A DNA stretch of 64,000 nt from positions 2,728,001 through 2,792,000 of the forward strand of contig JANCIK010000007.1 of NCBI GenBank assembly GCA_028532985.1, given 5' to 3'. Under the pieces are notes generated by a model. The model ran no database searches, had not been told where the DNA came from, and was given only the letters and a program-made list of their open reading frames with translations. Below are positions 57,240-58,820 of the stretch, piece by piece. The position numbers and the translations under genes were made by a program. The stretch's first letter is position 1. Every line of letters starts with the position of its first letter. Source of the stretch: Stropharia rugosoannulata (Eukaryota; Basidiomycota; Agaricomycetes; Agaricales; Strophariaceae).

Positions 57240-58820
57240 ATGGCCAACGTCTTCGTGAGTGTCCTTCCTCTCCAGCAGTACGAAATTCGACAAGGGCGCC
57301 CTTTGCTTACTTGTTCACGGTCAGTTTGATGTAACTATAGATGGCGAGCCTGCGGGCCGCATCACGTTTAAGTTGTACGACAAAGTAGTGCCCAAGACTG
57401 CACGAAACTTCCGCGAGATTGCGACAGGACAACATGGCTTTGGGTACACTGGATGCGACTTCCACCGTGTCATCCCTGACTTCATGCTCCAAGGCGGAGA
57501 CCTGAGCAAGTTCCACCCAACCGGAGAGAAGCGCTCAATCTACGGTAGCAAATTTGAAGGTATGTCGGCGGAGACAGCCGTGTAATGCAAGGGCCTCTTT
57601 CACCCTTTGCTCAGTAACGGAGGATGAGCTGACGGAATCTTCTGTTTTGAGATGAGAATTTTAAACTGAAGCATACGAAGCCGGGCTTATTGTCCATGGC
57701 AAACTCGGGGAAGAACACAAACAACTCGCAGTTCTTCATAACAACGATTGCTACGCCTTGGCTGGACGGCAAGCATGTTGTGTTCGGTACGTGCCTTCAA
57801 TTTTCCCTGGTGTATCGTCTTTGTTTGAAGGCCAACAAGCGTAATATCGTATGTCAGGCGAGGTACTTGACGGCATGGAAGTTGTGCGCACAATCGAGGC
57901 TCTAGGTACCGAAAGCGGTAAGGTGCTGAAGGAGGTAATAATTGCGGATGCAGGCGTCCTCGAGGAGCCTGCGGAGAGCAAGCCGGTTGACTCAAATCCA
58001 CTACGCAGTCTATTTAGCTGGCGAGGAAAGGGCAAAAAGCCACCGCCAGCACAACTTCCAGAGCCTGTAATGTCCCCTGAAGAAGCTACTCTCCCCCAAG
58101 CCTCCCCGGTCGATCCTGCTCAAGCATTCGTTTTCGTGAGACCTATCAGATTTATTAGTCAAGTGGGTACCGTTGTTGACAATTCACATCGCATTCTAGT
58201 TTGATGTTTCGGTGGACTCACGGACGATCGGCCGTATCGTTTTCAAGCTGTACGACGACGTCGTTCCACGGACGGCGAGAAATTTCCGCGATCTGGCCAC
58301 GAGACAACATGGCTTCGGATACGAAGGATCCATCTTCCACCGTATCATTCCCCAATTCATGATTCAAGGCGGCGATTTCACAAATGGTAACGGAACAGGA
58401 GGTCGATCAATTTACGGGCCAAAGTTCCAAGGTACCCCGTCTTGTATGTCGTGCTATCGATGTCGATAACAGTAACATCTGCTCCTGATTACAGACGAGA
58501 ATTTCTCGAGGAAGCATACCAGACCGGGCCTCCTTTCTATGGCGAACTCGGGCCCAAATACTAACGGATCACAATTCTTCATCACGACGGCGGCCACTCC
58601 ATGGCTTGATGGCAAGCATGTCGTTTTTGGTGAGCTTGATCATTGACTTGTCCACGACTAGGAACCAGTAATGACATTGAATTGATTATATTTAGGTGAG
58701 GTCGTGCACGGTATGGAGTTTGTGAGGACCATGGAATCATATGGTTCTGCCGCTGGGAAAGTTTCAGCTTCAGTAAAGATAGAGAAGTCGGGGGTTACCG
58801 GTCTCCAGGAGGTGGAGTAG
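57240..58820 (+). CDS. Two-domain (tandem-fused) cyclophilin
   Basis: Seven exons (57240-57254, 57325-57559, 57652-57786, 57858-58135, 58200-58431, 58495-58629, 58696-58820; 1155 bases, 384 residues). Domain 1 (about 1-165) and domain 2 (about 217-384) are each complete. Both have FHR, FM(L/I)QGGD, NSQFFITT or GSQFFITT, and ATPWLDGKHVVFGEV, so all cyclophilin active-site residues are kept. They are joined by a 50-residue linker rich in Pro, Glu and Ser with a basic patch (WRGKGKKPPP). Domain 2 starts AQAFVF, intron, FDVSV, mimicking the MANVF, intron, FDVT start of a single gene. Exons 5 and 6 are 232 and 135 bases, the standard cyclophilin A lengths. Both domains probably isomerise prolyl bonds in the cytosol. 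No targeting signal is seen. Confidence 0.9.

Follow-up and report, generated by a model that had tools for sequence, protein, structure and literature searches.

A predicted two-domain CypA-type cyclophilin of an agaricomycete, with a linker shared with Hypholoma sublateritium

In the 64,000-nucleotide stretch of Stropharia rugosoannulata DNA analyzed here (the window), positions 57240 to 58820 form one predicted gene of seven exons, with 1155 coding bases, 384 residues, and a single stop (Table 1). Judging from the sequence, this locus probably holds a single gene, whose product would be a bivalent CypA-type cyclophilin of the cytosol or nucleus, with the fusion origin and the tether mechanism proposed below; its nearest protein relatives point to an agaricomycete. 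The distinctive part of the predicted fusion appears to be its linker rather than its double-domain architecture. Comparison with Hypholoma sublateritium brings out what would be invisible from one sequence, i.e., the apparent age of the fusion and the conservation of that linker. The addition to knowledge is modest: double cyclophilins are already known from many eukaryotes, and this one has a linker shared with a related mushroom.

Table 1. Predicted features of the fusion locus and of the two free-standing cyclophilin genes (positions in the window)
Feature	Position	Strand	Description
C46, free-standing CypA-type gene	46379..47173	+	four exons, 162 aa; MANVY/FDI, phase 0
Exon 1	57240..57254	+	MANVF, start of domain 1; followed by a phase-0 intron, as in C46 and C60
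Exon 2	57325..57559	+	domain 1, 235 bases; catalytic FHR and altered loop LSKFHPTGEKRSIYG
Exon 3	57652..57786	+	domain 1, 135 bases (MANSG...WLDGKH); GAG acceptor upstream
Exon 4	57858..58135	+	278 bases; end of domain 1, linker, and QAFVF (in place of a separate first exon for domain 2)
Linker coding stretch	~57971..58135	+	~55 residues; conserved core LFSWRxKGKxPxPA
Junction intron	58136..58199	+	phase 0, 64 bases, without ATG
Exon 5	58200..58431	+	domain 2, 232 bases; weak donor GTACCC
Exon 6	58495..58629	+	domain 2, 135 bases
Exon 7	58696..58820	+	end of domain 2, TAG stop
C60, free-standing CypA-type gene	60728..61411	+	four exons, 162 aa; MSNVF/FDI, phase 0

A Pfam scan of the protein detected PF00160 twice (E = 9.3e-97; 322.1 bits against a curated cut-off of 21.7) and PF00160 alone, with no FKBP domain. 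Together with the predicted seven-exon frame, these two stretches bear out the original prediction of one fused protein with two cyclophilin domains. All six introns of the gene are of the GT...AG type; five have a CAG or TAG end, and intron 2 ends in GAG. Their phases run 0, 1, 1 through domain 1 and again 0, 1, 1 through domain 2, which is the pattern of C46 and C60, and nothing points more clearly than this repetition to the joining of two entire gene structures. As had been claimed, an intron is retained at the fusion point (phase 0, 64 bases), and exons 5 and 6 do have lengths of 232 and 135 bases. Exon 2 measures 235 bases because domain 1 carries one extra codon. The seam had also been described as AQAFVF/FDV, equivalent to the MANVF/FDV start of domain 1 and to the starts of the free copies. 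This holds for position and phase but not for the letters, which are near rather than identical, with MANVY/FDI and MSNVF/FDI in the free copies. The original reading of the sequence was correct in all but a few details.

Two splice signals of the gene model are weak: intron 2 has a GAG acceptor, and intron 5 begins with the donor GTACCC, at 58432. A better-looking, in-frame GTATGT lies at 58444, and its use as a donor would turn FQDENF into FQGTPSYENF, adding four residues at the cost of the conserved DENF. Given these two candidate donors, the 232-base exon 5 rests on family agreement. With two in-frame donors in 58432-58449, domain 2 could have two isoforms.

Beyond domain 1 the frame remains open as far as 58135, without an in-frame stop. 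A run of 55 open linker codons has a chance of about 16% from base composition alone; the open frame is therefore weak evidence by itself, and it is the conserved linker that constitutes strong evidence. The same features bear on an alternative in which the locus comprises two neighboring genes, domain 1 ending early through intron retention and a stop near 58204, and domain 2 being translated from an ATG within the linker at 58070. This ATG is in frame, and a Tephrocybe protein (P0018) may illustrate how gene models merge tandem cyclophilins. However, an in-frame stop is absent upstream of 58136, the junction intron contains no ATG, and in a Hypholoma protein, P0023, the linker is conserved on either side of the 58070 ATG, opposite which it has T, not methionine. 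Two separate genes are thus very unlikely, and the single fused gene remains our preferred reading.

Among 179 proteins compared, only P0023 (HYPSUDRAFT_48515 of H. sublateritium; Strophariaceae, Agaricales) had the linker motif. It is a partial gene model that starts inside domain 1, about two thirds of which is missing, and consists of the last part of that domain, the linker, and a complete domain 2. Its identity to the fusion protein is 68% across the compared stretch, and LFSWRxKGKxPxPA is common to both linkers. These are identical at 22 of 54 aligned positions, and their alignment score of 88 was reached by none of 2000 shuffles (mean, 6.6; standard deviation, 7.9; maximum, 40.5). In local alignments against 84 linkers, i.e., those of at least 20 residues from the best 120 of 7979 whole-protein matches, P0023 scored 92 and the runner-up 38. 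A search by alignment also ranked P0023 at the top, and among the best 120 of 7991 scored candidates the linker motif occurred in P0023 alone. The linker region used on its own (residues 148-230 of a 288-residue query) returned 18 candidates, none with E <= 10, and missed even P0023, so that this search is uninformative on rarity. Within its own genome, the linker matched solely the fusion locus itself (C7:2785962-2786135).

The linker core carries a net charge of +5 across 16 residues in Hypholoma and in the window alike, and from its composition one may guess at a nuclear or docking role. In the predicted structure of P0023, linker residues 71-106 have pLDDT values below 50; a model of such low confidence fits a flexible tether, as would be expected.

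A tree with 28 rows placed each domain of the fusion beside its Hypholoma counterpart, with support of 95/95 for domain 1 and 97/99 for domain 2; its bootstrap had not settled, 14 of its 25 inner branches are open, and the row of Hypholoma domain 1 has letters in 39% of the columns. A single clade made of domains 1 and 2 of the fusion was rejected (p-AU = 0.00198, the constraint having been chosen after the tree was seen), and with it a recent internal duplication. This rejection and the grouping of each domain with its own counterpart indicate that the domains diverged before the two lineages split. The conserved linker and the domain groupings together argue that the fusion predates the split from Hypholoma and is no accident of gene modeling. 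We took a shared linker and the grouping of each domain with its own Hypholoma counterpart as the marks of an ortholog, and P0023 shows both, the ortholog evidence being this single partial gene model. Two further constraints were not rejected: a clade of C46 and domain 1 (p-AU = 0.112), and one uniting all four fusion domains apart from the free cyclophilins (p-AU = 0.253).

The proposed descent from CypA-type copies is supported by the presence, within about 15 kb, of three genes on the same strand that together carry four CypA-type domains. C46 lies 10.1 kb upstream of the fusion and C60 1.9 kb downstream; the identity between these two is 85.8%, their identity to the fusion domains is 68-72%, and C60 shares 89% identity with an Agrocybe cyclophilin. 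By the NG86 method, dS was saturated in four of the six pairs; the usable pairs gave dN 0.252 and dS 1.989 (domain 1-C60) and dN 0.117 and dS 1.946 (C46-C60). We propose that two adjacent cyclophilin copies would have been joined before the Hypholoma split, the downstream copy keeping its intron and losing its start codon. That the upstream stop and the downstream start were lost, with QAFVF at the 3' end of exon 4 as the former first exon, is consistent with the sequence but unproven. As a case of gene fusion the locus is clear, its seam being marked by a former first intron. Genome-wide, there are 26 PF00160 stretches, seven of which come from the fusion, C46, and C60, and the spacing of the others gives the impression that a second fusion is absent elsewhere in the genome.

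PMC2911226 names R55, F60, M61, Q63, A101, F113, W121, L122, and H126 as active-site residues of human cyclophilins. Residue mapping to CypA showed that each fusion domain keeps all nine, in agreement with the earlier claim of complete active-site motifs in both. Each domain thus resembles Cyclophilin A (PPIA, PF00160) in fold family and in these nine residues; the fusion differs from it in having two domains per chain and a loop insertion in domain 1. The best solved-structure match of the whole fusion protein was Cyclophilin A (3pmp), across domain 2. The insertion adds one residue to the 67-80 loop of domain 1, which also has P at CypA position 72, E at 75, and N at 109. Positions 73, 81, 82, 103, 107, 110, and 111 are given as gatekeepers of the S2 pocket in PMC2911226. 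At position 103 both fusion domains have S, as against A in C46 and C60; at position 81, domain 1 has S and domain 2 has P, as against E in C46 and C60. We infer that domain 1 may prefer different residues beside proline than domain 2, and both are predicted to be isomerases, tethered to each other, with the specificity of domain 1 shifted.

The altered loop, with P at 72, E at 75, and N at 109, would also suit a protein whose domain 1 has lost its usefulness as an isomerase and acts in binding or regulation instead; PMC2911226 proposes that a cyclophilin may go on binding proline motifs even when no activity can be detected in it. Against such a loss, domain 1 retains every one of the nine named active-site residues, R55, W121, and H126 among them, and we find this alternative unlikely. 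In the mechanism we favor, with two isomerase domains, domain 2 would be an ordinary prolyl isomerase, domain 1 would bind a shifted set of proline motifs through its altered S2-side loop, and the linker would be a flexible tether whose basic-aromatic core could act as a localization or docking motif. The protein might then engage clients at two sites or bring two clients together. Processive action by the two active sites, which had been suggested, is not supported, since nothing in the analysis speaks for it. A bolder and rather doubtful extension is that the fusion belongs to a cyclophilin family rare among agaricomycetes, whose functional docking core and S2-rim-retuned domain 1 let one protein couple two different proline-directed binding activities at a single cellular site.

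Relative to C60, a reference consisting of a single gene, codon use scored 0.546 in C46 and lower in the fusion, with 0.392 in domain 1 and 0.349 in domain 2. Codon use in the fusion is thus further from that of C60 than is that of C46, which hints at modest expression. A codon preference weaker than in C60 or C46, the two weak splice signals, and the very few relatives among the database matches listed could all be read as marks of a decaying or barely expressed fusion with no distinct role. Such decay is hardly credible for a frame of 384 codons open over seven exons, with intact active sites in both domains and a linker conserved in two species. The window species and Hypholoma form a pair suited to study of the tether itself.

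The presence of two catalytic domains in one chain had been regarded as unusual. This rarity was not borne out: according to a local profile, 115 of the best 120 of 7979 whole-protein matches have at least two full cyclophilin domains (two or three), a count that is no frequency among cyclophilins because the whole-protein search favors two-domain proteins through its length window and ranking. The other five matches have one full domain each and include P0023, as its model is incomplete. Among the matches listed, the organisms with the double architecture include chytrids, plants, Acrasis, and agarics. Proteins of Rhizoclosmatium (P0038), Carnegiea (P0068), Acrasis (P0073), Tephrocybe (P0018), and Amanita (P0022) resemble the fusion in their tandem cyclophilin domains but lack the linker motif. 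In the tree, the domains of the Rhizoclosmatium protein pair together, as do those of the Carnegiea protein, so that these duplications look independent of the window fusion. The small tree thus speaks for double cyclophilins having arisen more than once, and the fusion adds a single data point to the question of why isomerases become tethered; it is not a new kind of enzyme.

Some double-cyclophilin models may be gene mergers. In Tephrocybe P0018, a tailless first domain passes directly into the second, and we suspect a merger of gene models. Steccherinum ochraceum P0037 (503 aa) has two cyclophilin domains of the ER type, separated by a hydrophobic stretch, and perhaps represents merged neighbor genes. 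PMC2713222 describes the dual-family immunophilins FCBP and CFBP, which combine a cyclophilin and an FKBP in one chain. As presented there, they are like the fusion in having two prolyl isomerase domains per chain, whereas both domains of the fusion are cyclophilins and FKBP is absent. Literature searches showed nothing on the window fusion among the papers listed, the combination of 'Hypholoma sublateritium' and 'cyclophilin' yielding 0 papers, and the terms 'two cyclophilin domains', 'second cyclophilin domain', and 'tandem' do not occur in the accessible part of a survey of 16 fungi (PMC1618848).

Several other features of the window were observed. Exons of a gene of the Amidohydro_3 family lie directly upstream of the fusion, at ~54700-57015 (+), and a DUF7330-matching gene with rough borders occupies 59366-60293 (+), in the interval between the fusion and C60. 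An ORF at 33993-34925 (-) matches DDE_Tnp_4, and an ORF upstream of it, at 34942-35514 (-), may be its first part; the former is presumably a Harbinger-type transposase. Long, similar ORFs are found at 1693-3309 (+), 5592-7304 (-), and 14707-16404 (+), and the profile match of the third to F-box-like suggests that the three may form a small local F-box gene family.
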